Position numbers and translations under genes: made by a program. 41,983 nucleotides of DNA from Deltaproteobacteria bacterium. Its GTDB lineage: Bacteria > Myxococcota > XYA12-FULL-58-9 > JABJBS01. The stretch is from assembly GCA_018668695.1 (NCBI GenBank), contig JABJBS010000383.1, forward strand, positions 80,753 to 122,735, given 5' to 3'. The notes under the pieces were generated by a model. That model made no database searches, was not told the DNA's origin, and saw only the letters and a list, made by a program, of their open reading frames with translations. Positions 1-30,215 of this stretch are shown here, piece after piece (positions within the stretch are counted from its first letter, which is position 1; every line of letters starts with the position of its first letter).

Positions 1-434
1 TCATCGCTAGCAATATAAAGTCGGTCAGAGGCATCTGTAGCCATGCGCCGGGGCGCAAGCTTGAGGTTGGAGTCAATTCCCTCGAAGTCTTTAGATAAGA
101 AATCGAGTTGCCCAATAACCAAGCTGGCCTCGTCCGGAATGACTCCGGTTTGACCTGCAGCATAACCCAGCACGCGGTTGTTGTTATGATCTGCGACGAG
201 CAAATGCGCACCAAGTCGGGTTACGGCCATCGGTACATTAAGGCTGTGCCCATCGAGAACCGGCGACGTATTTCGGTAAAAGTCCAGCTGACCCAAAACG
301 CCGTCGGCAGGCATGTAATTTCTAAGATTAAGTGCTTGAGACCGCGATGAAGCATTGTGCTCAATTCCGCCGATTGGTGCACTGCAGGCGGTGAGGGCGC
401 TGAGGCAAATTGCCGAAGTGATTTTACGGAGCAT
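1..434 (-). CDS. NHL-type beta-propeller lipoprotein, 3' end outside the window
   Basis: This frame is open from an ATG at 434 to the left edge, giving 144 codons with no stop, so only the N-terminus is present. It starts with a lipoprotein signal peptide, a positive MLRK followed by a hydrophobic stretch and the lipobox LTAC, with C17 as the lipidated residue. The mature part carries the motif LLVADHNNNRVLGY, typical of NHL repeats, and two copies of GQLDF about 60 residues apart, which suggests propeller blades. The start overlaps the stop of the upstream DNDGDG-repeat gene (TGATG), and a GGGGAGG ribosome site lies about 8 bases before the ATG, so the two are very likely translated together. 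A surface or periplasmic binding role is inferred; the ligand is unknown. Confidence 0.75.
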   Translation of the reverse strand, partial: MLRKITSAICLSALTACSAPIGGIEHNASSRSQALNLRNYMPADGVLGQLDFYRNTSPVLDGHSLNVPMAVTRLGAHLLVADHNNNRVLGYAAGQTGVIPDEASLVIGQLDFLSKDFEGIDSNLKLAPRRMATDASDRLYIASD

Positions 435-1987
435 CAGAGAGCCTCCCCGTTGTCAAAGAGTCCGGTGCATTGAGGGTCCCCGTTTGCAAAATCAGGGTTA
501 GCACTGCCATTGCTTAGAAACTCGGGTTCGAAGTCGATGAGGCCATCTCCATCGTTGTCGATGCCATCGGAGCACTGCGAGGGAGAGCCTTCGTTGCGGC
601 CTCTTAGCCCATCTATATTGGAGTCAGCACGATGGGCGCAGGCTGCGTCCGCGGGGTAATCCGTGGTACCATCTCCGTCATTATCGATCCCATCCGAACA
701 TTGCGGTTTGGTTGATTCGAAAAGGTCTACGGCACTTAAGCAACCAGGGTCGGGAGGGATCTCTCCGGGAAGATCGTATACTGAGTCGTTGTTAAAATCG
801 ACTCCAGCAAAATCAGCTCGGCCATCCCCGTCGTTATCGATTCCGTCGGCGCAAACAGGATCGGGGCTCTCGACCCCAAGTCCAGCATCGCAAGCGGGGT
901 CGCCAGGGCTGGTTTGCGTGGTGTAGTCGATGAGACCATCTCCATCGTTATCAACGCCATCTGAACATTCGCCATCGGGCGCTTCATCAGGGTCTGATTC
1001 GCTCTCGCAATCGGGGTCACTTGGGTAGTCGGCAGCTCCGTCGCCATCGTTATCGATGCCATCGGAGCAGGCCGGCAAAACTCCATCGGTTTCATCGGTG
1101 TCTTGAGCACTCTCACACCCTGGATCAAGAGGGGTATTGGCAACGCCGTCACCATTGGTGTCGAGTCCGCCAACGTCGATGAGGCCATCTCCGTCGTTGT
1201 CGATACCGTCGGAGCATGCTGCGTTGATTTCGTTATCGTCGGTAAGGCTTTCGCATCCAGGGTCTTGTGGGTAATCCACTGTGCCATCTCGGTCGTTGTC
1301 GATTCCGTCGCCGCAAGCAAAGCTTCGTTCACGGTCCTGGTAAAGTGACATACAATCAGGATCGTTAGGAAAGTCAGTAAAGCTGTCTCCGTCATTGTCG
1401 AGCCCGTCGAAACATTCTGGGTTGTTTTCGGTGGTGTCAAAAGGGCCGTCGCATCCAGGGTCTTGTGGGTAATCGATGTTGCCGTCGCCGTCGTTGTCGC
1501 GGCCGTCAGCACAGGGTGGGTCGATGTTCTCGGCACGGCCTGAGGCCATACCGCCGCATCCTGGATCTGTTAGATGATCGATAAAACCATCGCCATCGTT
1601 GTCGATTCCGTCCGAGCACTGCGGGTTGGTTTCTGTCATGGCATGGGGTGTGTATTGGCCTAAGTGATTTTGGCAACCAGGATCATCTTGATCGATGCGC
1701 CCATCACCATCGTCATCTTTGCGGTTGGCGCAGATGGGGTCAGCGGCTTCGTAGGCACCGCGCTGGCTCTGACTGCAGGCAGGGTCGCTTACTTGCAACC
1801 CATCTAATGGATCTTGGCAGCGTGCAGGTATGTCGGTGAGCCGCTGGCAAGCTGGGTCAAAAGTATCGACCAACCCGTCGCCATCGTTATCAATGCCGTC
1901 TGAGCATTCACTGTTAAGCCCTGAGCAACCTTGAAGCATTGCAAAGAAAATAAAAAATACGAGTCTAGGAGTCTCGGCGTGTTTCAT
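434..1987 (-). CDS. Lipoprotein made of twelve DNDGDG repeats
   Basis: A secreted lipoprotein of about 517 residues. From the ATG at 1987 the N-terminus has a hydrophobic stretch ending in the lipobox LQGC (C21); a GTG at 1999 in the same frame is an alternative start but has no ribosome site. The rest is twelve imperfect units of the form C-x-D-G-I-D-N-D-G-D-G-x-x-D followed by a DPGC or similar second Cys. The acidic D-x-D-x-D-G spacing resembles calcium-binding loops, and the paired Cys residues probably form disulfides within each unit. Such proteins are frequent in Myxococcota-like genomes and lack an assigned function. It sits 24 bases after the beta-barrel-like gene and overlaps the NHL lipoprotein gene by one base. 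Calcium binding and surface exposure are inferences. Confidence 0.85.
   Translation of the reverse strand: MKHAETPRLVFFIFFAMLQGCSGLNSECSDGIDNDGDGLVDTFDPACQRLTDIPARCQDPLDGLQVSDPACSQSQRGAYEAADPICANRKDDDGDGRIDQDDPGCQNHLGQYTPHAMTETNPQCSDGIDNDGDGFIDHLTDPGCGGMASGRAENIDPPCADGRDNDGDGNIDYPQDPGCDGPFDTTENNPECFDGLDNDGDSFTDFPNDPDCMSLYQDRERSFACGDGIDNDRDGTVDYPQDPGCESLTDDNEINAACSDGIDNDGDGLIDVGGLDTNGDGVANTPLDPGCESAQDTDETDGVLPACSDGIDNDGDGAADYPSDPDCESESDPDEAPDGECSDGVDNDGDGLIDYTTQTSPGDPACDAGLGVESPDPVCADGIDNDGDGRADFAGVDFNNDSVYDLPGEIPPDPGCLSAVDLFESTKPQCSDGIDNDGDGTTDYPADAACAHRADSNIDGLRGRNEGSPSQCSDGIDNDGDGLIDFEPEFLSNGSANPDFANGDPQCTGLFDNGEAL
455..1906 (-). repeat. Coding tandem repeat, 12 imperfect units
   Basis: The DNA here repeats a core that reads on the plus strand like 'ccatc(t/g)cc(a/g)tcgtt(a/g)tcgat', once per protein unit. 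Most units are 60-70 bases apart; units 7, 9, 10 and 12 carry insertions that make them longer. Core identity is high while the linkers vary. This pattern fits expansion by unequal recombination followed by divergence. Confidence 0.75.
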
Positions 1988-2011
1988 ATTTCGTTCCACG
2001 TGGAGAGGGGG

Positions 2012-11910: not shown

Positions 11911-12792
11911 GTGAAGGGAATTATATTGGCCGGTGGTTCTGGAACCCGTCTGCACCCTTTGACACTTGCGACCAGTAAGCAGCTGATGCCGGTTTACGAC
12001 AAACCGATGGTCTATTACCCGCTTTCAACCTTGATGCTTTCAGGTGTTACTGAAGTCCTCCTGATTTCAACCCCAGAGGATTTACCGCAGTTTAAGAAAT
12101 TGCTCGGTGATGGCAGCGCGCTTGGCATTCGAATTGAATACGCCGAGCAGCCTAAGCCAGAAGGTTTAGCTCAGGCATTTCTGATTGGTGAATCATTTAT
12201 AAACGGTGACCCGGTCAGCTTGATTTTAGGGGATAACCTTTTCTACGGTTACGGCCTAGCCAATCGGCTGCAAGCGGTCGCTGAGCGCAAAGGCACTTCC
12301 ACTATCTTTGGTTATTGGGTGAAAGATCCTAACCGATATGGCGTGGTAGAATTCGACGATAAAGGCTTAGCGATTAGCTTAGAAGAAAAGCCTGAACACC
12401 CCAAAAGCCATTACGCTGTTCCGGGCCTCTATTATTATGACGAGCGTGTTGTGGCGCTGGCCAAAGCTTTAAAGCCATCTCCGCGGGGCGAGCTCGAAAT
12501 CACAGACTTAAACCGTTTGTATCTTGAGGATGAAAGTCTGCAGGTTGAAATCATGGGCCGTGGTATTGCCTGGCTCGATACAGGCACTCATCAATCGCTG
12601 CTGCAGGCGAGTCATTTCATCCAAACGGTGGAAGAACGCCAGGGTTTGAAGATCGGGTGTATTGAAGAAGTAGCCTACCGAATGGGAACCATCGATCATG
12701 CTCAATTTTGCAAGCTTGGTGAGGCATTAAGTAAATCTGGTTATGGTCAGTACATTCTTCAGCTGGCCAAGGAGCTTTCAGTTTCCCCTTAA
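11911..12792 (+). CDS. rfbA: Glucose-1-phosphate thymidylyltransferase
   Basis: 293 residues starting at GTG with an ACGAGGAG site 6 bases upstream. It makes dTDP-glucose, the first step to dTDP-rhamnose. The N-terminus [16 protein letters not shown] is the nucleotidyl-transferase signature and [23 protein letters not shown] is specific to RmlA-type enzymes; [30 protein letters not shown] and [17 protein letters not shown] are further family blocks. Length and motifs are normal for the short RmlA class, which is usually feedback-inhibited by dTDP-rhamnose. Confidence 0.96.
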
Positions 12793-12847
12793 GCTGTTTT
12801 GCGCCCATGTTTCGCTGGACATCTTTACGGTACTCGATGATTCTCAG

Positions 12848-14842
12848 ATGGTGAAATTCTTCAAGTCTCTAAGTCTACTGTGTTTCTTTGTGGTGATGAT
12901 TCCGCACGGGGCGCAGGCTTACGAAGTCGATATCCAGCTTTTTAAGCCGGCAACGGGAACAGGCAGTCTGTGGAGCACTGAATCGGCTCAAATGGGTAAA
13001 CATTTGGGTTACCGAGCAGGTCTTCAGCTTCAATACGCCCGAGACCCTTTGGTTTTAAGTATCAGCCAGTCGGCAGGCAGCCAAGGTGAAGTTGGTGCAC
13101 TTGTGGCCAATCGGTTCGATGCCGCTTTAACGCTCACCGTTGCCTTATGGGAATGGGTTGAGGTTGGCCTGAGCGTCCCCCTGATTTTACAAGGCGGCGC
13201 CGAGGGTGAAGCTTTTGATGCTGCCGGGCTCGAAGTCGGTTTGGGCGCGCTAAGTGCTGTTTCAGTAGGTGATATTCGTGTGGTGCCTCGCTCAAAACTT
13301 TTTGGTTTGGGCGATGGAGCACTTGATGTAGCGGTGGGTGTAGGCGTTGTCTTGCCAAGTGGCAGCGCAGCCTATGCCGGTGAAGGCGGCGTGTCCTTGG
13401 AGCCCGCACTTTATATATCGTCCCATAAAGGTTTGATGACGGCTCATATCAATGCAGGCTTTCGCTATCGAAAACCTGCCACCATTGAAACGCTTACCAT
13501 ATCCAATGAGATTTTTTGGAACCTTGGAGCGAGTGTCGATTTGATTGGCCTTCAGGGCGAAGCTTTTACGTTAAGCGCGGTTGGTGAATTTTTTGGACGT
13601 ACCGATGCCAGCGAACCTTTTGGAATCGGTGGTGACGAAAACTCAGCGGCGATGAGCGCGCTTACGCCCATGGGCTTTATGGCCGGCGCTCGCATGACTG
13701 TCGATGGTACATGGAGTGTCGGGCTTGGAGCCGGCGGCGGGATGCATCCTGGTTATGGTACCGCGGCGCCTCGTCTGATGATGGAGCTGAGTTATAATTC
13801 AGCGGGCAGTATGGCACTTGATACCGATGGCGATGGGCTTTCCGATGACCGAGATGAGTGTATCAGTAAACCAGAAGATCTAGACGGCTTTGAAGACGAC
13901 GATGGATGTCCCGACTCAGACAATGACGGTGATATGGTGCTCGACGAAGATGACGCCTGCCCCAACGATCCAGAAGATAGAGATGGTATTCGCGACGACG
14001 ACGGCTGCCCTGATGTTGACGATGATGGCGATGGCGTACCGGACGAAACCGATAAGTGCCCAGGTGACCAAGAAGATTTGGATGGCTTCCAGGATGAGGA
14101 TGGCTGCGCTGATTTCGACAATGACGGTGATGGTTTTGCCGATGGAGCGGACCGGTGCCCAATGGAAGCCGAGGATTTAGATGGCTTTCAGGATGAGGAC
14201 GGTTGCCCTGATTTAGATAACGACCTCGATGGGGTGCCTGATTTAACGGACGCCTGCCCTCTATACCCAGAAGACCTTGATGGAGTTGAGGACACCGATG
14301 GCTGTGCTGAGGACAACGACCGCGACGGTATTCTAGATGCGTTGGACAAGTGCCCACTCAAGCCAGAAACTTATAATTTTGAGTCCGACACCGATGGTTG
14401 TCCAGACAAGGGCAAGTATCCTGCCTACGTAAGCGTGGGTGAGGGTCGCCTGGAGTTTCAGCAACCCGTGGCGTTTAAGTACCGGGGCCTTAAGCTAACG
14501 GTGAAAGGCAAGCGGGTTCTTTTACAAGTCGCGGCTATTATTAAGGCGCACAAACATTGGACCAAAATCCTTGTTGTCACCCACGTAAATTCGCTGAGCT
14601 CGAAACGCAAGAATCAGAAGTTTAGCAAAACACGAGCCGCGGTGGTCGAACGCTTCTTGAAGAAGCAAGGTATCTCGTCGGATCGACTTGTATTGGTACC
14701 GCGCGGATCTACAGCCGGTGAAAAATCTGACCGAGTTGATTTTGTGGTGGAAGAAGAAGAGCCACTGGGTACGCCCGTTGGTAACGTAACTGAGCCGGCT
14801 ACTGTTCCGACTCCAGGCATCGATTTTGAGATGCAGTTTTAA
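12848..14842 (+). CDS. OmpA-like protein with thrombospondin type 3 repeats
   Basis: About 664 residues from the ATG at 12848, chosen because a signal peptide (MVKFFKSL, hydrophobic core, GAQA-Y) starts there; the frame extends upstream into rfbA. Residues about 25-320 are glycine-rich alternating strands likely to form an outer-membrane barrel. Residues about 323-520 contain six acidic units ending DDDGCPD, DEDGCPD or similar, the calcium-binding TSP3 repeats found between barrel and OmpA domains. The C-terminal part (about 530-640) resembles an OmpA peptidoglycan-binding domain: a strand LEFQQPVAFKY, a helix KRVLLQVAAIIKAH, ILVVTHVNS, and then KTRAAVVERFLKKQGI. It probably links the outer membrane to peptidoglycan. 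It lacks a clear ribosome site. Confidence 0.88.
   Translation: MVKFFKSLSLLCFFVVMIPHGAQAYEVDIQLFKPATGTGSLWSTESAQMGKHLGYRAGLQLQYARDPLVLSISQSAGSQGEVGALVANRFDAALTLTVALWEWVEVGLSVPLILQGGAEGEAFDAAGLEVGLGALSAVSVGDIRVVPRSKLFGLGDGALDVAVGVGVVLPSGSAAYAGEGGVSLEPALYISSHKGLMTAHINAGFRYRKPATIETLTISNEIFWNLGASVDLIGLQGEAFTLSAVGEFFGRTDASEPFGIGGDENSAAMSALTPMGFMAGARMTVDGTWSVGLGAGGGMHPGYGTAAPRLMMELSYNSAGSMALDTDGDGLSDDRDECISKPEDLDGFEDDDGCPDSDNDGDMVLDEDDACPNDPEDRDGIRDDDGCPDVDDDGDGVPDETDKCPGDQEDLDGFQDEDGCADFDNDGDGFADGADRCPMEAEDLDGFQDEDGCPDLDNDLDGVPDLTDACPLYPEDLDGVEDTDGCAEDNDRDGILDALDKCPLKPETYNFESDTDGCPDKGKYPAYVSVGEGRLEFQQPVAFKYRGLKLTVKGKRVLLQVAAIIKAHKHWTKILVVTHVNSLSSKRKNQKFSKTRAAVVERFLKKQGISSDRLVLVPRGSTAGEKSDRVDFVVEEEEPLGTPVGNVTEPATVPTPGIDFEMQF
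13818..14415 (+). repeat. Six TSP3 coding repeats
   Basis: Six successive units of about 75-110 bases encode D-x-D-G-x-x-D followed by 'D..CP..PEDLDG..D.DGC'. The units most alike are those encoding EDLDGFQDEDGC twice in a row. The pattern explains the strong local Asp bias on this strand and the spurious antisense reading frames. Confidence 0.8.
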
Positions 14843-21108: not shown

Positions 21109-22671
21109 TTAAGGACTCGGCGCCACAGTCATCAATGTCTTCAAGTCCTCATCCGTAAAGCGCAACGCTCCTCCGAGAAACCATTGCGCAAGGTCTGCGT
21201 TGAAGGGGTCATCGATACCCGCTTGGAGCCAAAGGTGATCGAAGAATTCGTATAGAAACGTTCCGCGTAACCGTGGCGGACGAACTTCGCCACTGTCTAA
21301 GAAGCGCCTTTCAAAATCAAAGGCATCAAGTCTTAACTCTAGGGAGTCGTTGAGGGCGTGAAGGTTTAAACCGAGCCCGCCGGTGTTCTCAATGATTCCG
21401 AAACGCAGGGTTGCAAAGTAATAACGTTTTGCAAATTGGGCGGAAAACTTCATCACATTGTAGTTTGTTGTGTACGTCTCTGTGATTTGTGCGCTTTCTT
21501 CTCCGTCAACAGTTACGGTTTCACGTGTCACTTCCCGGTTTTGTCTACCTCTATGATCTGCGACTGCTTCGAGAATATAGCTTTTGTCGGGCCTTGGTTT
21601 GATGGCAACACCGACAATATTTTTAATGCCGGTGCCGGCCTGGTCACCGCCAGATTGGAACGGGACATCAAATTCCGAACGAAGCTCTACTTGAGTTTCG
21701 AGCCGTGAAAGACCCCCGAACAACTCATTGGTACTATCGAGTGTTTCTTCTACCTTCTCAGAGATACTTGGGTCGTTGATAATCCGCCCCATCGTGCCAG
21801 TGCCATCATCAATTTTGCGAGTAATGCTGTTGAGGTGGGCGACACTTTCAGTGAGGTTATCAATACTTTGACGAAGCGGTGAATCAGATATTTCAGCACC
21901 GGCTTCCCCATAGATGGCGTCACTCATGCGTGCGGCCAAGAGGTCGAGCCTGCTGCTCAGGCTGGCTAAATTGGATGTGATCTTGGTGATGTCACCTTGG
22001 TTGCCGGTGGTTGAAGCCAAGTTGCCGGTAAAGGCGCGCACATCACCAAGGATGGCGTCGATGTTGTTATCGTTGCGCTCTAAGCTACCTGCCACGACAC
22101 GAGTCGTTGTTTCTAAAGCGGCAAGAGAGTTTTCAACGCGCTTAAAGATGGCTTCGATTGAGCCTTCGGCTTCTGGACCCGAGAGAACCCGCCGGAAGCT
22201 GTCGGTAATTTCTTTCACGTTGGAGGCGACGTATTTAAGTTCGGACTGGATGGCATCCATGTCGGAAACGCTTTGGACACGGCCAATAATTCCCTCAGGT
22301 TTGAGCACACCCGCGCCGCGGTTCCCGGGATCGAGGTCGAGGCGAAAATCACCCAGTAGGGATTCGGCTGCCTTTTTGATGGCGGCGTCTTGGTACACGG
22401 TGTAGTCGTTTAGGATTCTCACGGTGACGCGCGCAACGAGCCGGCCGTTGTCGAGGCGTAAGTGCTCAATGCCGCCGATTTTACCAACATCGATTCCGTT
22501 GATTTGAACCCGTGTTTTCCAGCGAATGCCTGAAGCGTCAACGAAGTCAGCGTAGACTGGATAAGTGGCTTCATCGCTGAACTTATCTTTACTGGTTTTC
22601 ATCAAAAACCAGCTCATGGCTGTAACAGCCGTAAGCAAGACGAGACCGACAAGTAATGGTGCTCGTATCAT
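21109..22671 (-). CDS. MCE (MlaD-type) protein with C-terminal outer-membrane-like beta domain
   Basis: About 520 residues from the ATG at 22671, whose ATGA overlaps the stop of the ATPase gene. One N-terminal membrane helix (about residues 5-24) leads to one MCE domain (about 36-125: YPVYADFVDASGIRWKTRVQINGIDVGKI) that should form a hexameric lipid tunnel. Residues about 140-330 are long helical segments. Residues about 335-505 switch to alternating strands rich in aromatics, for example YYFATLRFGIIENTGGLGL and RGTFLYEFFDHLWLQAGI, resembling an outer-membrane barrel. Plain MlaD is about 180 residues and lacks this part. With the permease and ATPase it should move phospholipids across the envelope. 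The beta-barrel reading is inference. Confidence 0.85.
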   Translation of the reverse strand: MIRAPLLVGLVLLTAVTAMSWFLMKTSKDKFSDEATYPVYADFVDASGIRWKTRVQINGIDVGKIGGIEHLRLDNGRLVARVTVRILNDYTVYQDAAIKKAAESLLGDFRLDLDPGNRGAGVLKPEGIIGRVQSVSDMDAIQSELKYVASNVKEITDSFRRVLSGPEAEGSIEAIFKRVENSLAALETTTRVVAGSLERNDNNIDAILGDVRAFTGNLASTTGNQGDITKITSNLASLSSRLDLLAARMSDAIYGEAGAEISDSPLRQSIDNLTESVAHLNSITRKIDDGTGTMGRIINDPSISEKVEETLDSTNELFGGLSRLETQVELRSEFDVPFQSGGDQAGTGIKNIVGVAIKPRPDKSYILEAVADHRGRQNREVTRETVTVDGEESAQITETYTTNYNVMKFSAQFAKRYYFATLRFGIIENTGGLGLNLHALNDSLELRLDAFDFERRFLDSGEVRPPRLRGTFLYEFFDHLWLQAGIDDPFNADLAQWFLGGALRFTDEDLKTLMTVAPSP

Positions 22672-23405
22672 TCTTGTTTCCCAAACCAAGTGTTTAAAAA
22701 CTCTTGAACAAAAGGATGCTTCGAATGACGAATCTCACTCGACGCACAATCTTCTACCACCTCACCTTTATGGAGGACTGCGATGTCATCCGCAACTTTT
22801 ATGGCGCTACCAACATCGTGGGAGATGACCACACTGGTAACCTGTAGCCGTTGGGCGGCGTCTAAAATCATCTGATCAACGTTGTCTGTGGTAATAGGGT
22901 CGAGGCCTGTGGTGGGTTCGTCATAAAGCACGACCTCGGGGTCAAGAATCACCGCGCGGGCCAGCCCAACCCGTTTACGCATTCCGCCTGAGAGTTCCGA
23001 AGGGAATTTGTTAACGGATGTCTCGAGGCCGACCAAGGCAAGTTTGGCGAGTACACGTTTGTCGACCTCTTCATGAGAAAGCTGAGTATGTTCAAGTAGA
23101 GGAAAGGCCACATTTTCCCAAACAGTCATGGAATCAAAAAGAGCGGCTTGTTGAAAAACCATCCCGAATTTGGTTCTTAGTTTGAGAAGAGCGGGGGTTT
23201 TCATTTGGCAAACGTCTTCCCCGTTGACCAATATTTGCCCCGAGTCTGGTTTCATGAGGCCAATCATATGTTTCATCAACACGGACTTACCGGACCCAGA
23301 GAGGCCCAAGATGACCCGTGTGGTGCCTGGCCGCACATTGAATGAAACACCTTTTAAGACCTCTGTACCGCCAAAGCTTTTTCTTAGGTCTCGAATCTCG
23401 ATCAT
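22668..23405 (-). CDS. mlaF: Mla-type ABC transporter ATP-binding protein
   Basis: About 245 residues from the ATG at 23405. Walker A is GLSGSGKS, the signature is LSGGMRKRVGLARA (the GGMRKR form is typical of MlaF/TTG2A ATPases), and Walker B is VVLYDEPTTGLDP followed by VISHDV. It energises phospholipid traffic with the MlaE permease. The ATG lies two bases after the permease stop, and the gene's own stop overlaps the MCE gene start (ATGA). An upstream TTG at 23423 is less likely. The short C-terminal tail LNTWFGKQE is present. Confidence 0.95.
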   Translation of the reverse strand: MIEIRDLRKSFGGTEVLKGVSFNVRPGTTRVILGLSGSGKSVLMKHMIGLMKPDSGQILVNGEDVCQMKTPALLKLRTKFGMVFQQAALFDSMTVWENVAFPLLEHTQLSHEEVDKRVLAKLALVGLETSVNKFPSELSGGMRKRVGLARAVILDPEVVLYDEPTTGLDPITTDNVDQMILDAAQRLQVTSVVISHDVGSAIKVADDIAVLHKGEVVEDCASSEIRHSKHPFVQEFLNTWFGKQE

Positions 23406-23407
23406 AT

Positions 23408-24193
23408 CTACGCCGGTGCCCAAAGAAGCAAAATGCTTGTGAGTATATAGTCGAGCACAAATATCGAAATTGAGCCAATAACTACCGCCTGAGTGGTGGC
23501 ATTTCCGACGCCGCGGGCGCCTCCACTGGCATAAAATCCTCGGTAGCAGCCGATCAAGGCGATTAAGACGCCAAAGAAGACGGATTTTACCATGCCGTGC
23601 ATAAAATCGTAGGGATCAAGTAACCACTCGATTCGGGCGACGAAGGCTCCTTCATCAAGTCCCATCATCAAAACTGCGACTGCATACGAGCCAAGAGCAG
23701 CAACGACGCAAAACAAGACGCTCAAGGCTGGTACCATAATGGAACTAGCGATAATCCGAGGTACCACAAGGTATTTAATGGGGTCGATGGCCATGACTTC
23801 CATCGCATCGATTTGTTCTGACACCCGCATGGTACCAAGCTCAGTGGCCATAGCAGAGCCAACCCGGCCAGTTACCATGAGGCTTGTAAGTACAGGGGCA
23901 AGCTCTCGGCTGACCGCAAGCATAACGGTGGAGCCAACGACGTTTTCCATACCGACACGTTGAAGTCCGGTAATGGTCTGCAATGTGAAGACAGCCCCGG
24001 TGAAGGTTCCGGTGAGCAGAACGATAAAAAGTGAGCCAACGCCAACAAATTCCATTTGCTCAAGCAAGAGTTTAAAGCGGTAGGGAGGCTTGAGTGCCAG
24101 CAGGCATACCCGCCCGAGAAAAATCGCCATATTGCCGAGCTCGGTGAAGAACGCGATGGTTTTCTCACCGGCCCGAGTCAACGGCCCTATCAT
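23408..24193 (-). CDS. mlaE: MlaE-type ABC permease
   Basis: 261 residues with about five membrane helices. The conserved block QMEFVGVGSLFIVLLTGTFTGAVFTLQ and the coupling segment SRELAPVLTSLMVTGRVGSAMATELGTMRVSEQIDAMEVMAIDPIKYLVVPR identify the MlaE family, with GFYASGGARGVGNATTQAVV near the end. It forms the inner-membrane dimer on which the MCE ring sits. The start overlaps the alr stop as ATGA. No MlaB, MlaC or MlaA gene is in the window, so the set is reduced to permease, ATPase and MCE protein. Confidence 0.95.
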   Translation of the reverse strand: MIGPLTRAGEKTIAFFTELGNMAIFLGRVCLLALKPPYRFKLLLEQMEFVGVGSLFIVLLTGTFTGAVFTLQTITGLQRVGMENVVGSTVMLAVSRELAPVLTSLMVTGRVGSAMATELGTMRVSEQIDAMEVMAIDPIKYLVVPRIIASSIMVPALSVLFCVVAALGSYAVAVLMMGLDEGAFVARIEWLLDPYDFMHGMVKSVFFGVLIALIGCYRGFYASGGARGVGNATTQAVVIGSISIFVLDYILTSILLLWAPA

Positions 24194-25305
24194 GATGGTG
24201 CACCCGTGTATTGACGTGGAACTCGGTCACTGATGCCGCAGGTAATTTCGTAGGCAATGGTACCTGCCCATTGGGCAAGGTCGTAGGTTGTAATGCACTC
24301 TGTGCCTTGGCTGCCCATCAGAACAACCTCATCTTGTTGAGTGATGTTTTCAAAGTCGGTGACATCGACCATGCACAGATCCATGCAGATGCTGCCCACA
24401 ATGGGTGCGCGTCGTCCCTGAATCAAAACATCTGCTTTTCCCTCAAAGCTGCGCCGGTACCCATCGGCATAGCCAACCGGGAGAACAGCTATTTTGGTGG
24501 CGCGTTTGGCAACAAAGTGTCCGCCGTAACTTACCCGCTCTCCGGCAGCAATCTCTTTGATCTGCAGCGGTCGGGTCGTCCAGCGCATCAAGGGCGTTAA
24601 AGCTTTGGGCACATTGGTTTGCATTGGACTTAAACCATACATGACCAAGCCCGGTCGTAATAAATTCTGGCTAGTATTTTCTAAGGTGAGTGTCGCAGCA
24701 CTGTTGGAGAGATGGCGGTGCTGGGGTGAAAACCCGGCACTTTTTACTTGGCTTAGTGCATTTTCGAACGCTTCGATTTGGGCTTGGTTACGCGGCGTAT
24801 CTTCAAGATCAGCATTTTGGAGGTGAGTCATCACACCGTCGAGAACCAAATTAGGGTGATTTTTTAGCTCTTGTAAAAATGCACCTAATTGCTCGGGCTG
24901 AACGCCAAGCCTGGACATACCCGTGTCGACTTTTAAATGGAGCTTTAGGGAGCTCGACCCAGCTGCTTTAGATAGTGCTTCCAATTGTTCGACTTCGAAT
25001 ACGGTTGGGATGAGTTTAAATTTCACCAAAGCCTCAGCGGCTTCGTTCACAAGTGCGCCAAGCACAAGAATGGGTAAGTCGATCCCGGCTTCACGTAGCC
25101 GAATACCTTCTTCGACCAAAGCGACTGCGAGCCATGCAACACCTGCATCAGCGAGGGTTCGCGCGATTTCAACGCTTCCGTGTCCATAGGCGTCGGCTTT
25201 GACGACTGCGCAAAGTTGAACATCGGGGTGCAGCTTGGCAATAGCGGCCGCGTTTTGCCTTAATGCTTGAAGATCAACGGCGACTTGAGTGGGGCGATAG
25301 AACAT
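24190..25305 (-). CDS. alr: Alanine racemase
   Basis: About 371 residues from the ATG at 25305, giving the classical start MFYRPTQVAVDLQALRQN; a GTG at 25326 would add seven residues. It interconverts L- and D-alanine for peptidoglycan. K36 in CAVVKADAYGHG is the PLP lysine, and ERVSYGGHFVAKRATKIAVLPVGYADGY contains the second catalytic Tyr; VGSICMDLCMVDVT is the C-terminal block. Length is normal. Its stop overlaps the mlaE start, so it is coupled to a lipid-transport cluster, an uncommon partnership. No clear ribosome site is seen for either start. Confidence 0.95.
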   Translation of the reverse strand: MFYRPTQVAVDLQALRQNAAAIAKLHPDVQLCAVVKADAYGHGSVEIARTLADAGVAWLAVALVEEGIRLREAGIDLPILVLGALVNEAAEALVKFKLIPTVFEVEQLEALSKAAGSSSLKLHLKVDTGMSRLGVQPEQLGAFLQELKNHPNLVLDGVMTHLQNADLEDTPRNQAQIEAFENALSQVKSAGFSPQHRHLSNSAATLTLENTSQNLLRPGLVMYGLSPMQTNVPKALTPLMRWTTRPLQIKEIAAGERVSYGGHFVAKRATKIAVLPVGYADGYRRSFEGKADVLIQGRRAPIVGSICMDLCMVDVTDFENITQQDEVVLMGSQGTECITTYDLAQWAGTIAYEITCGISDRVPRQYTGAPS

Positions 25306-25338
25306 AGCCGGTATGTTGACCGACACAGGATTTGTGTC

Positions 25339-25389: not shown

Positions 25390-26682
25390 TTAGTAACAGA
25401 CGCTGCCGCTTGAGTTGCCAAAGGCTGATCCGAGCAGCTCGTTAAGCAGGGCTTGAACAGCGTCATCGCCGCCGCAGCTTTGTCCTGCTGGGCAGGTTTC
25501 AAAGATGGCGCTGGTCGCCAGGTCACAGACTTGTCGGCAGCTCTTGTCACAGTTGCCAACTGGAATGAGGTCACAAGTAAGACCAGCTTGAGGGTCGTCA
25601 TAGGCGCAGATGGTGCCGCCGGGACACTGGCTGTCGGCATCACAAGGACCTCCGAGCGAACCGCTGCCATCGGCGACGCATTGGCGACTGTTGTTGCACG
25701 TGCAAATACTTGAACCAGCGCATTGGCCCACGCAATCGGCATCATCGCGGCAACCCGGTGCACAGGTATTACTGAATAGGTCACAATATTCTCCCGCAGG
25801 GCATTGAATGTCTTGTGTACATTCTCCAGAGCCGTCGGGCAGACATACCGCCGGATTGTAGTTGTCGGCGCAGGTAAACCCGGGTGGGCAATTGCCGTTG
25901 TCGCATGGGTCAGGATCCACACAATAAGGCTCCTCGCAAACGAGGCCGTAAGGAGTGCAATCGAGCTGGTCGTTGCACGGTGGTGAAGGCTGGCATACGC
26001 CGTTGGCGCAATATGAGCCATTGGGGCAATCACCAGGTCCACTGCAGCTGTCAGCGGGTCTACAAGCACCATCTACGCATTCACAACTTCCGTCCTGGCA
26101 ACCGGCAACGTCGTTGCAATCGGTATCGTCGGTACAGCCGCCCAGGTTGTTCGGGTCAAAGCACTCGTTATCGGCATTGCAAAGCCAGTCGCAGGGGCAT
26201 TGTTGGTTGAAGTAACAGGTTGCCGGTGGCGCGCTGCATGAACGGGTTTGACCATTGCATACTTCACCACCTGGGCAGTCGCAGCTGTTATTGGCAGGAT
26301 CACAGTCGTAGTTCGAAAAGCAGCGCCCGTCGATGCATTCTTGCCCAACGGAGCAGTCATCGTTGGAGCTACAATCTGGCACACAAATGCCTTCGCTCGA
26401 TGGGTCATAAGTTGTGCCGCTTGGTTGCTGGCAATACTCGTCTGCGGGGCAATCGGTATCGTCAGTGCACGGCGTGTCTTCTATAGGCTCTTCGGACTGA
26501 CATGCTCCGCCCACGCAAACTCCGCCTTCACAGTCGGCATCGCTTAGGCAAAGGCCCGACGTATCACTGGGATCTGTCGTATCCGTCGGGTCGGCAGGAC
26601 CCGTGTTGCGGTTTTGCCCGCAGGCGGCCAGTCCCAAAATTAAAGTAAGGCAACAAAGTGCTAAAACGCGTCCTAAGTTCAT
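25390..26682 (-). CDS. Cysteine-rich repeat lipoprotein
   Basis: 430 residues. The signal peptide MNLGRVLALCCLTLILGLAAC ends in a lipobox with lipidated C21. A short Pro/Thr/Asp linker follows. The rest is many small units of the type C-x(2)-D-x-D-C-P-x-G-x-x-C, such as CTDDTDCPADEYC, with dozens of Cys that probably pair as disulfides outside the cytoplasm. Similar EGF/Dickkopf-like Cys-rich lipoproteins are common in Myxococcota and have no assigned role. A GGGGGAAAAT sequence precedes the ATG, and a good promoter lies upstream. It appears monocistronic, ending before a strong hairpin. Confidence 0.8.
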   Translation of the reverse strand: MNLGRVLALCCLTLILGLAACGQNRNTGPADPTDTTDPSDTSGLCLSDADCEGGVCVGGACQSEEPIEDTPCTDDTDCPADEYCQQPSGTTYDPSSEGICVPDCSSNDDCSVGQECIDGRCFSNYDCDPANNSCDCPGGEVCNGQTRSCSAPPATCYFNQQCPCDWLCNADNECFDPNNLGGCTDDTDCNDVAGCQDGSCECVDGACRPADSCSGPGDCPNGSYCANGVCQPSPPCNDQLDCTPYGLVCEEPYCVDPDPCDNGNCPPGFTCADNYNPAVCLPDGSGECTQDIQCPAGEYCDLFSNTCAPGCRDDADCVGQCAGSSICTCNNSRQCVADGSGSLGGPCDADSQCPGGTICAYDDPQAGLTCDLIPVGNCDKSCRQVCDLATSAIFETCPAGQSCGGDDAVQALLNELLGSAFGNSSGSVCY

Positions 26683-27495: not shown

Positions 27496-29028
27496 TTAAC
27501 CTTGGTTTCGGCTTCGCTCGATGAGGCGCTTAAGCTCTTGGTTTGAGTTTTTGTACTCAACCTTTTTGCCCCAGCGTTCGAGTGCTGCGTTAAGTACTTT
27601 GAGATCGGCTCCGCCTAGGCGGCTCACACTTGCCATGGCGGCCATGCGCACTGCAGAAGATTCGTCTTCTACGGCTTTCATCAGGCTTGCTATGCTCTCT
27701 TTTGAGCCTAACCAACCGAGCTGAAAAGCGGCTCGGCGTCGCACTTTGATATTGGCATCCGCAAGCTTGCCCGTCCAGCAGGTAGCATCTGACTTACATT
27801 CTGTGGCCGCGGCGAGAGCAGGCTTATTGGCTGCAACAATCTTAGCGATTTCTTGAGTTGCTTCTTCTTTAGGTCCTTTAAGACCGTCGAGGCTCGCTGT
27901 TTCTGAGCCGGCTCCCAGCATGGCCACTGCTTCAATAGCAGCTCGGCGCGCCGCCGCATTGCCTGTTTTAGCGGCAGCTAAAAGGCTTGCAACAGATTTT
28001 GTAGCGCCGATGTAGGTCAGTGCTTCGGTGGCTGCAATGCGAAGGTTGGCATCAGTTTCGTTGGCAATTGTTGAAAGGCTCTTAATGCTGGCCTCTGTAC
28101 CAAGGTTTCCAAGTGAGTATGCAATTTCAGCGACCGCACCCGGAACGCTTGCAGAGATTCCGCTCGCCCGATTTTGATACTTTTTGTAATAGGTCTTGAG
28201 TGCTGCAAGCATTTGCTTTTCGGCATCTTGAGCACGCAGCGAGCCGAGTACGAAAGCAGCTTTTCCTTCAATGGCACCCTCAGCAATGTTTACACCGCTT
28301 GGTAACCGAATCGCTTCTACGGCTTTGTTTTTGCGCTCAAGAGTTTCAATCAAAGCGGGAATGGCTGATTTACCAATTTGCAGAAGTGAGTGGCGTGCTT
28401 CGTAGTAAAAAGAAGTTCCAGGCAGTTCCATGTAGAGGCTGTCGATGAGGACTGGGATGCCTTTGTCGTCGCCCAAGTCGCCGAGAGCCATGATGGCTGT
28501 TTTGCGTAAGAACGGCTGCGTTTCGGTTCTGGCAATTTTAATCAGCGTCTCAGTTCCGGTTTTGCTGCCGATTTTACCGATTGCGCGCATGGCAGCTTCA
28601 CGGGTGTTGAGGTCAGGCATGGTGGTAAGACGAATAAGGGCATCGACGCCGCTTTCCGCTTTGAGCTGACCCATGGCCTTTGCGATGTTTAGGTTGGTTC
28701 GGTTCTTGGCACGTGTCTTTTTATCCGAGCCAGTCCCCACGGTGTAGCTAATGCCGCCCTTGAGTGCCGGGATAATGGTTGCGTCGCCAAGTCGGCCCAG
28801 TGCGTATGCTGCTTCTGGGGTCCAAGAACCTTCTTGCTCAAACCATTCTTGAACGCTGGGTAAAGCAGTTTTATCACCGAGCTTACCCAATTGGGTGAGT
28901 GCTTCGGGGCGCTTCTCTTTGTTTTCGAGTTGTGCAATCCAATATGCAGAGGTGGTTGGATCTTCGGGCTGGCTGCAGCTTGCGAGGATAAAGGTTGCGG
29001 CGATTACGGCAAGTAGTTTTCTAGTCAT
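27496..29028 (-). CDS. HEAT-repeat lipoprotein
   Basis: 510 residues. MTRKLLAVIAATFILASC is a lipoprotein signal with C18 lipidated and Ser at +2. Almost the whole mature chain consists of HEAT/PBS-lyase-type helical repeats of 30-40 residues, seen as recurring 'A..ALG.LGD..AIPAL' patterns such as AAYALGRLGDATIIPALKGG, AAMRAIGKIGSKTGTETLIKI and TAIMALGDLGDDKGIPVLIDSL. These form curved scaffolds for protein binding; no enzyme motif is seen. CAAGGAG precedes the ATG and a promoter-like sequence lies upstream. A second HEAT lipoprotein is divergently encoded 122 bases away. Confidence 0.88.
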   Translation of the reverse strand: MTRKLLAVIAATFILASCSQPEDPTTSAYWIAQLENKEKRPEALTQLGKLGDKTALPSVQEWFEQEGSWTPEAAYALGRLGDATIIPALKGGISYTVGTGSDKKTRAKNRTNLNIAKAMGQLKAESGVDALIRLTTMPDLNTREAAMRAIGKIGSKTGTETLIKIARTETQPFLRKTAIMALGDLGDDKGIPVLIDSLYMELPGTSFYYEARHSLLQIGKSAIPALIETLERKNKAVEAIRLPSGVNIAEGAIEGKAAFVLGSLRAQDAEKQMLAALKTYYKKYQNRASGISASVPGAVAEIAYSLGNLGTEASIKSLSTIANETDANLRIAATEALTYIGATKSVASLLAAAKTGNAAARRAAIEAVAMLGAGSETASLDGLKGPKEEATQEIAKIVAANKPALAAATECKSDATCWTGKLADANIKVRRRAAFQLGWLGSKESIASLMKAVEDESSAVRMAAMASVSRLGGADLKVLNAALERWGKKVEYKNSNQELKRLIERSRNQG

Positions 29029-29057
29029 GGCGTGCTCCTTGGCTCATTTGCGAAAGC

Positions 29058-29086
29058 TGCATAACGCGCTCCCATGAAAGGGTCAA
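29058..29086 (-). promoter_or_regulatory. Possible promoter for the minus-strand HEAT-repeat gene
   Basis: On the minus strand TTGACC (29086-29081) and TATGCA (29063-29058) are separated by 17 bases, about 30 bases before the ATG at 29028. The -35 is good and the -10 moderate. Confidence 0.45.
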
Positions 29087-29150
29087 CGCGAGTGGGATCG
29101 GGGCTTTAATTGTGACGCGGGGTTCCATATGTTAGCGGTCTGACAAGGCG

Positions 29151-30215
29151 ATGATGAAAAGATACGACATAAATAGATTCTTGGTTGTGCTTGGACTGAT
29201 TTTGGCAGGATTAACCGGGTGCGATTCTATGGTTTCGAGCGCCATCGATTCCGGGCCAACCTATTGGAGTAATGTGTTAAAGACGGAGCCTTCCTTCAAG
29301 GTTCGGCTGCAAGCTGCGGTTTTACTTGGGCGATCAGGCCATCCAGATGCACTCAAGGCTTTGATTGATTGCGCAAAGACCGACGACGATGACTCGGTCC
29401 GCCGTGCGGCGATCGACGCGTTGGCTCAGCTTAAGCGTCCACGTGCGATTGTCGAGTTGGTTACTTTGGCCGCCAGTGATCCGGTTCCCATGGTTGCAGC
29501 GGGGGCGAACGTGGCCTTGACCTCTTTTGACTTACTGGCCCACCAAGAATTTGTTCTCGCAGCTTTTGATTCAGACGATGTGCGGGTTCGGTCGGCGGTT
29601 TTAAAGCATCTACCTCTGCCATTGAACGACTTGGCACGGGCGGTCATTACAAAAAGCTTCGGTGACTACCCGGAGGTTTATGAGCAGGCTCAAACGTTGC
29701 TGGCCACGATGCCTCGTATCACGCGCATGGAATGGATTTCCGAAGGCCTGCGCTCAGCTAAGGCCCCTATTCGAGCTGGGGCGGTACGTGCCCTTGGCCG
29801 TGATGGTCATCGTGAGAACCTCGCTGTGGTGATTGAAGTTTTTGAACAAGAAGATGAAGATTTGACGGTTAAAGATGCTGCAGCCTACTCGCTTAGAGAG
29901 TTGAAAGAGCATTTGGTTGAAGGTGACTTTATTCGGGATGCAACGGAACACTCTGAGACGCATATGCGCATGCGAGCCATCCGTGTTCTGGAAGCCATTG
30001 GTGGACGAAAAGCGACACGGACTCTCGTGCTCGCGCTTGCGGATGAGAAACCACCCGTTCGTGGCCGTGCAGCGATGGCCCTGGCTAAGCTCAAAGTGAT
30101 AGCGGTTTTACCAAAGCTTGAAGAAATGGTGAGAAAACCATTAAATGAACCCATCAAATTGCATTTAACCCAGGCTGTGCAGGATTTGCGTGCGGCGATG
30201 GCGACCAAGCAATAA
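29151..30215 (+). CDS. HEAT-repeat lipoprotein
   Basis: 354 residues. The N-terminus has a basic head, a hydrophobic core and the lipobox LTGC with C24 lipidated. The +2 residue is Asp, which in E. coli retains lipoproteins in the inner membrane; whether the rule holds here is unknown. The mature part is HEAT-like repeats (VRLQAAVLLGRSGHPDALKAL, VRRAAIDALAQLKRPRAIVEL, IRAGAVRALGRDGHRENLAVV, VRGRAAMALAKLKVIAVLPKL). It is divergent from a longer HEAT lipoprotein, and proC starts 12 bases after its stop. Two consecutive ATG codons (29151, 29154) can start it. A protein-binding scaffold role is inferred. Confidence 0.85.
   Translation: MMKRYDINRFLVVLGLILAGLTGCDSMVSSAIDSGPTYWSNVLKTEPSFKVRLQAAVLLGRSGHPDALKALIDCAKTDDDDSVRRAAIDALAQLKRPRAIVELVTLAASDPVPMVAAGANVALTSFDLLAHQEFVLAAFDSDDVRVRSAVLKHLPLPLNDLARAVITKSFGDYPEVYEQAQTLLATMPRITRMEWISEGLRSAKAPIRAGAVRALGRDGHRENLAVVIEVFEQEDEDLTVKDAAAYSLRELKEHLVEGDFIRDATEHSETHMRMRAIRVLEAIGGRKATRTLVLALADEKPPVRGRAAMALAKLKVIAVLPKLEEMVRKPLNEPIKLHLTQAVQDLRAAMATKQ

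Follow-up and report, generated by a model that had tools for sequence, protein, structure and literature searches.

The gene at 21109..22671 on the minus strand of the window (the whole stretch of 41,983 nucleotides analysed here) encodes a long, 520-aa MlaD-type MCE protein whose C-terminal beta domain is, judging from structure prediction, very likely an outer-membrane barrel, and barrel-type MlaD proteins of this kind are near-universal in the phylum Myxococcota. We consider it probable that the protein is part of a minimal, MlaA-less MlaEFD lipid transporter, in which a hexameric MlaD would bridge the inner to the outer membrane, each chain ending in a ten-strand outer-membrane barrel that serves as an anchor, with transport driven by ATP and most likely retrograde.

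The 520-codon open reading frame (Pfam PF02470, E = 2.9e-9) begins with an ATG at 22671 and ends with the stop codon at 21109-21111. Translation could also begin slightly further upstream, at a TTG at 22689; we preferred the ATG at 22671 because it overlaps the stop codon of mlaF as ATGA, which is the usual arrangement of translationally coupled genes. Preceding mlaD on the same strand are mlaF, coding for the ABC ATPase (22668..23423; PF00005, E = 5.5e-34), mlaE, coding for the permease (23408..24193; PF02405, E = 4.3e-81), and alr, an open reading frame named alanine racemase by sequence recognition (24190..25326), which is the first gene of the unit and probably unrelated in function to mlaEFD. 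The ATG of mlaE overlaps the alr stop codon in like manner, and the two overlaps (mlaF/mlaD and alr/mlaE) indicate that alr-mlaE-mlaF-mlaD is a compact unit with mlaD last. That MlaE and MlaF are encoded together with an MCE protein is as expected of an MlaEFD lipid ABC transporter. Promoter and terminator scans returned nothing exceeding shuffled sequences. Directly upstream of the unit lies a gene for a Cys-rich putative lipoprotein (25390-26682, minus strand). Further along, two adjacent divergent genes (27496-30215) appear by eye to code for lipoprotein-like HEAT-repeat proteins, and a homologue of the first of them sits upstream of alr-mlaEFD in one relative (locus L135). The window also encodes a predicted secreted protein with many CSDGIDNDGDGxxD-type repeats of a calcium-binding-like pattern (434-1999, minus strand) and a protein that, by eye, is beta-rich in its N-terminal part, contains DxDxDG repeats and resembles OmpA at its C-terminal end (12743-14842, plus strand).

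A sequence-only reading of this DNA had described a membrane helix, one MCE domain and about 190 helical residues, and Pfam and AlphaFold2 bear this out. The N-terminal inner-membrane helix (residues 3-26; 22594..22665, minus strand, as are all features of the protein), modelled as a helix by AlphaFold2 and with a mean hydropathy of 1.52 over residues 1-26, is followed by the MCE domain (residues 36-116; 22324..22566), the single one recognised by Pfam (PF02470, MlaD; 37.5 bits vs. a curated cut-off of 25.1). The MCE part of the full-length model resembled solved MlaD MCE domains in Foldseek (TM-score of up to 0.85 by target length), and the protein scored 67.4 bits against the canonical short MlaD family (NCBIfam TIGR04430), below the equivalog cut-off of 135. 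Next comes a helical region that presumably spans the periplasm (residues 134-322, about 189 residues; 21706..22272), defined by the model and by helical periodicity, its hydrophobic moment peaking near 100-105 degrees. This region was of low confidence in the AlphaFold2 monomer (pLDDT about 38-60 over most of its length), and the helical region of Veillonella parvula MlaD is likewise poorly predicted (PMC10665443). Coiled-coil families (Baculo_PEP_C, ATG17_like and others) matched the helical region with scores below their cut-offs, and we took these as generic helix matches. The chain then enters the C-terminal beta domain (residues 325-506; 21154..21699), supported by the AlphaFold2 model, by alternation and by Foldseek matches, so that the order of membrane helix, MCE domain, extended helical region and C-terminal beta domain is that of the V. 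parvula-type long MlaD.

For AlphaFold2 we used an alignment of 28 sequences, comprising the 520-aa MlaD and 27 Myxococcota relatives. Modelled alone, the beta domain reached a pLDDT of 88.9 and a pTM of 0.80 with twelve strand segments, which by our reading of the model would correspond to ten membrane strands once 363-371/376-388 and 391-403/407-417 are each joined as a bulged strand. In the model, strands 3 and 4 are extended by a long hydrophilic hairpin (residues 376-403; 21463..21546), which varies in length and sequence among the aligned relatives. The alternating, aromatic-rich pattern that had been noted for the C-terminal part was evident in both respects: aromatic residues make up 11.6% of it vs. 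3.2% of the helical part, and the ten core segments are amphipathic, with a mean face difference of 3.46 vs. 1.48 ± 0.32 after shuffling of the residues inside each strand (none of 10000 shuffles reached 3.46), a test that taken alone is compatible with a soluble sheet too. One core segment (363-371) alternates weakly, and the two hairpin segments show no amphipathic alternation. Mean column identity is 37% in the C-terminal domain vs. 31% over the whole chain; 15 columns are invariant among the 28 aligned sequences, and the polar face of the domain carries the invariant or near-invariant charges R423, D449, R467 and D487. Short turns and longer loops alternate along it, like in outer-membrane proteins with both ends periplasmic. 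When compared with the BAM beta-signal motif pattern, the last strand fits the spacing (F498-x-G500-x-x-L503-x-F505), and column conservation marks out a beta-signal-like motif, FLGGALRF (residues 498-505; 21157..21180), in which F498, G500 and F505 are conserved at 96-100%. A modelled C-terminal helix with the consensus DDDLKxL follows the last strand (residues 507-516; 21124..21153), its D507, D509 and L510 being invariant.

Among the best 50 Foldseek matches of the beta domain in the PDB, 48 were membrane beta-barrels, including OmpA, Ail, intimin, OmpG, KdgM, AlkL and designed ten-strand barrels. TM-scores to solved barrels were low (best 0.46 by query length and 0.62 by target length, with the designed ten-strand barrel 8uzl), and we therefore leave barrel closure as predicted. 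These low scores, the low overall hydropathy of the domain (-0.39) and the fact that soluble beta sheets alternate in hydropathy as well would also suit a domain that is soluble in the periplasm and binds to an outer-membrane protein while itself staying outside the membrane. Such a domain is very unlikely in our judgement, as nearly all Foldseek matches are membrane barrels, the last strand is beta-signal-like, short turns and long loops alternate, and the corresponding domain of V. parvula fractionates with the outer membrane (PMC10665443).

The closest described system is that of V. parvula (Grasekamp et al., 2023; PMC10665443). Its MlaD has a membrane helix and an MCE domain, then about 150 residues that form a helical region or tunnel, and at the C-terminus a ten-strand barrel, which was found together with TolC in outer-membrane fractions. 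The predicted layout of the Myxococcota protein is the same, with a single MCE domain, a long helical region and a ten-strand C-terminal beta domain, and V. parvula likewise has an mlaE-mlaF-mlaD operon with overlapping mlaF and mlaD and no MlaA. Because both the architecture and the gene order agree, we assign this MlaD to the published type; the homology of the Myxococcota and V. parvula barrels is inferred from architecture. The two differ in that this MlaD is 520 aa long vs. 419 aa in V. parvula, with a longer helical part and the long hairpin in strands 3-4; its operon sits behind alr, whereas that of V. parvula precedes tolC-tamB; and V. parvula is without an MlaC-family gene, unlike this genome. 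Long barrel-type MlaD has been reported across diderm phyla as a widely distributed and probably ancestral form of MlaD, with absence of MlaC as a general tendency of the type and not its definition (PMC10665443); the word Myxococc- is absent from the main text of that paper. An inner-to-outer membrane bridge, as the sequence-only reading proposed, remains the best reading in light of this published system of the same architecture, but the barrel fusion is not unusual, as had been supposed: it was published in 2023 (PMC10665443) and is near-universal in Myxococcota. The architecture has thus been known since 2023, and its phylum-wide distribution in Myxococcota is a modest extension.

It is improbable, in our view, that several subunits pool their beta domains, as in TolC, in one larger shared barrel through which lipid would cross the outer membrane. 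The poor superposition on single closed barrels would fit such a fusion, and the V. parvula authors, who considered six barrels in a ring unlikely, raised a trimeric fusion (PMC10665443); against it, each chain already brings ten strands, an even number, and the domain in V. parvula was modelled as a single ten-strand barrel (PMC10665443). We favour one barrel per chain. Because ten strands would make a narrow pore and invariant charges lie on the polar face, the barrels are more likely to serve for anchoring, as a docking ring, than to be the lipid pore; this agrees with the V. parvula authors, who remarked that a phospholipid would not fit so narrow a barrel (PMC10665443).

The beta-domain profile matched 168 of 195 sampled Myxococcota genomes and 137 of the 149 high-quality ones, so that the domain with its alternating pattern is conserved there. 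The barrel MlaD is usually single-copy per genome; its immediate neighbours are mlaF and/or mlaE in most of the relatives' regions read, and the gene order alr-mlaE-mlaF-mlaD recurs in several of them. A contig search with the single MlaD protein as query gave no confirmed relative; the loci named here were found independently, with an 8-row alignment as query, and belong to Myxococcota (e.g., Archangium, Corallococcus, Hyalangium and Citreicoccus) and to one Sulfuricurvum (Campylobacterota). In genomes drawn from the phylum of that Sulfuricurvum, the beta domain was present in 25 of 150. The neighbourhood in Sulfuricurvum differs from the Myxococcota one: a 711-aa open reading frame that by eye resembles an LptD-type outer-membrane protein immediately precedes the gene for its barrel-type MlaD (L128:3839-7380). 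An apparent stand-alone barrel in another locus (L129) was rejected, as a run of N in the record breaks the frame.

We recognised neither mlaC nor mlaA among the open reading frames of the window, in line with the earlier observation that neither is encoded nearby. Genome-wide the two part ways. MlaA (PF04333) had no match in this genome or in any of 193 sampled Myxococcota genomes, with E. coli and Caulobacter controls positive; taken with barrel MlaD in 168 of 195 genomes, this fits a replacement of MlaA. The MlaC family (PF05494), however, has a match in this genome (40.1 bits), a 102-aa fragment at the end of genome contig C388, with a gene for a TolC-like outer-membrane efflux protein behind it (L037:4247-5916, minus strand), and is found in 145 of the 193 genomes. 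The idea that one chain replaces both MlaC and MlaA therefore fits the data as regards MlaA; replacement of MlaC is not established. A TolC-like gene adjoins MlaC in 5 of 6 loci read (this genome and four of five other Myxococcota), and the MlaC gene is unlinked to the barrel mlaD operon. The genome also has a TamB-family gene and a second MCE operon (L038:4595-8116, contig C262, minus strand), with two tandem MlaE genes, MlaF and a 355-aa MCE protein lacking a C-terminal beta domain.

Given the MlaC-family gene, a shuttle route may coexist with the bridge. The barrel could even be a tether only, lipid being carried to the MCE ring by an MlaC-family shuttle, perhaps with its TolC-like neighbour. 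To this we would assign a small probability: the frequency of MlaC in the phylum and its recurrent TolC-like neighbour speak for it, but MlaC is unlinked to the barrel mlaD operon, the second, barrel-less MCE operon could be its partner, and V. parvula works by MlaEFD without MlaC (PMC10665443). Unlikely, too, is a hybrid Mla pathway in Myxococcota, in which the barrel-tipped MlaD bridge would make MlaA unnecessary and the MlaC-family carrier, kept and often encoded beside a TolC-like gene, would add another lipid route, leading either to the same MCE transporter or to a second one.

Other MCE systems share parts of this design. MlaD of E. coli and A. baumannii (MlaFEDB) has the membrane helix and MCE domain and is likewise encoded with MlaE and MlaF, but at about 180-230 aa it is without tunnel or barrel and depends on MlaC and MlaA. 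PqiB and LetB, which are MCE proteins bridging the periplasm, stack several MCE rings, whereas this MlaD has one MCE domain and a barrel end. Mycobacterial Mce1A-F, among the top Foldseek matches of the full-length model, also combine an MCE domain with a long helical tunnel behind it; they form a heterohexamer in which each subunit contributes one strand to a small barrel, in contrast to a ten-strand outer-membrane barrel per chain (M. smegmatis structure, as cited in PMC10665443).

In the transporter that we favour, the architecture is as predicted here, and the bridge and the direction of transport follow V. parvula by analogy. Six copies of MlaD, held in the inner membrane by their N-terminal helices, would surround MlaE as in solved MlaFEDB, giving the 2:2:6 complex expected of an MlaEFD transporter; the MCE domains would form a ring, and the long helices would make up a hydrophobic tunnel that crosses the periplasm. 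The predicted ten-strand barrel of each chain would be inserted by the BAM machinery into the outer membrane, the location indicated by the V. parvula fractionation. Powered by ATP hydrolysis at MlaF, glycerophospholipid would pass through the tunnel, most likely in the direction proposed for V. parvula, from outer to inner membrane. There, mla mutants are SDS/EDTA-sensitive (PMC10665443). They also shed PE-enriched vesicles, and loss of tamB partly rescues them, which the authors took to mean that transport is retrograde; TamB was proposed to act in the direction opposite to MlaEFD (PMC10665443). Export of lipid to the outer membrane is, by these mutant phenotypes, a distinctly less plausible direction and one we doubt, even though the direction of Mla transport has long been controversial (PMC10665443) and no sequence feature fixes it.

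These observations extend a published but thinly tested idea, the one-protein lipid bridge, to a whole phylum that includes the cultured Archangium and Corallococcus. With barrel MlaD present, MlaA absent and MlaC often retained across the phylum, these organisms allow a direct test of which Mla parts the bridge really replaces.
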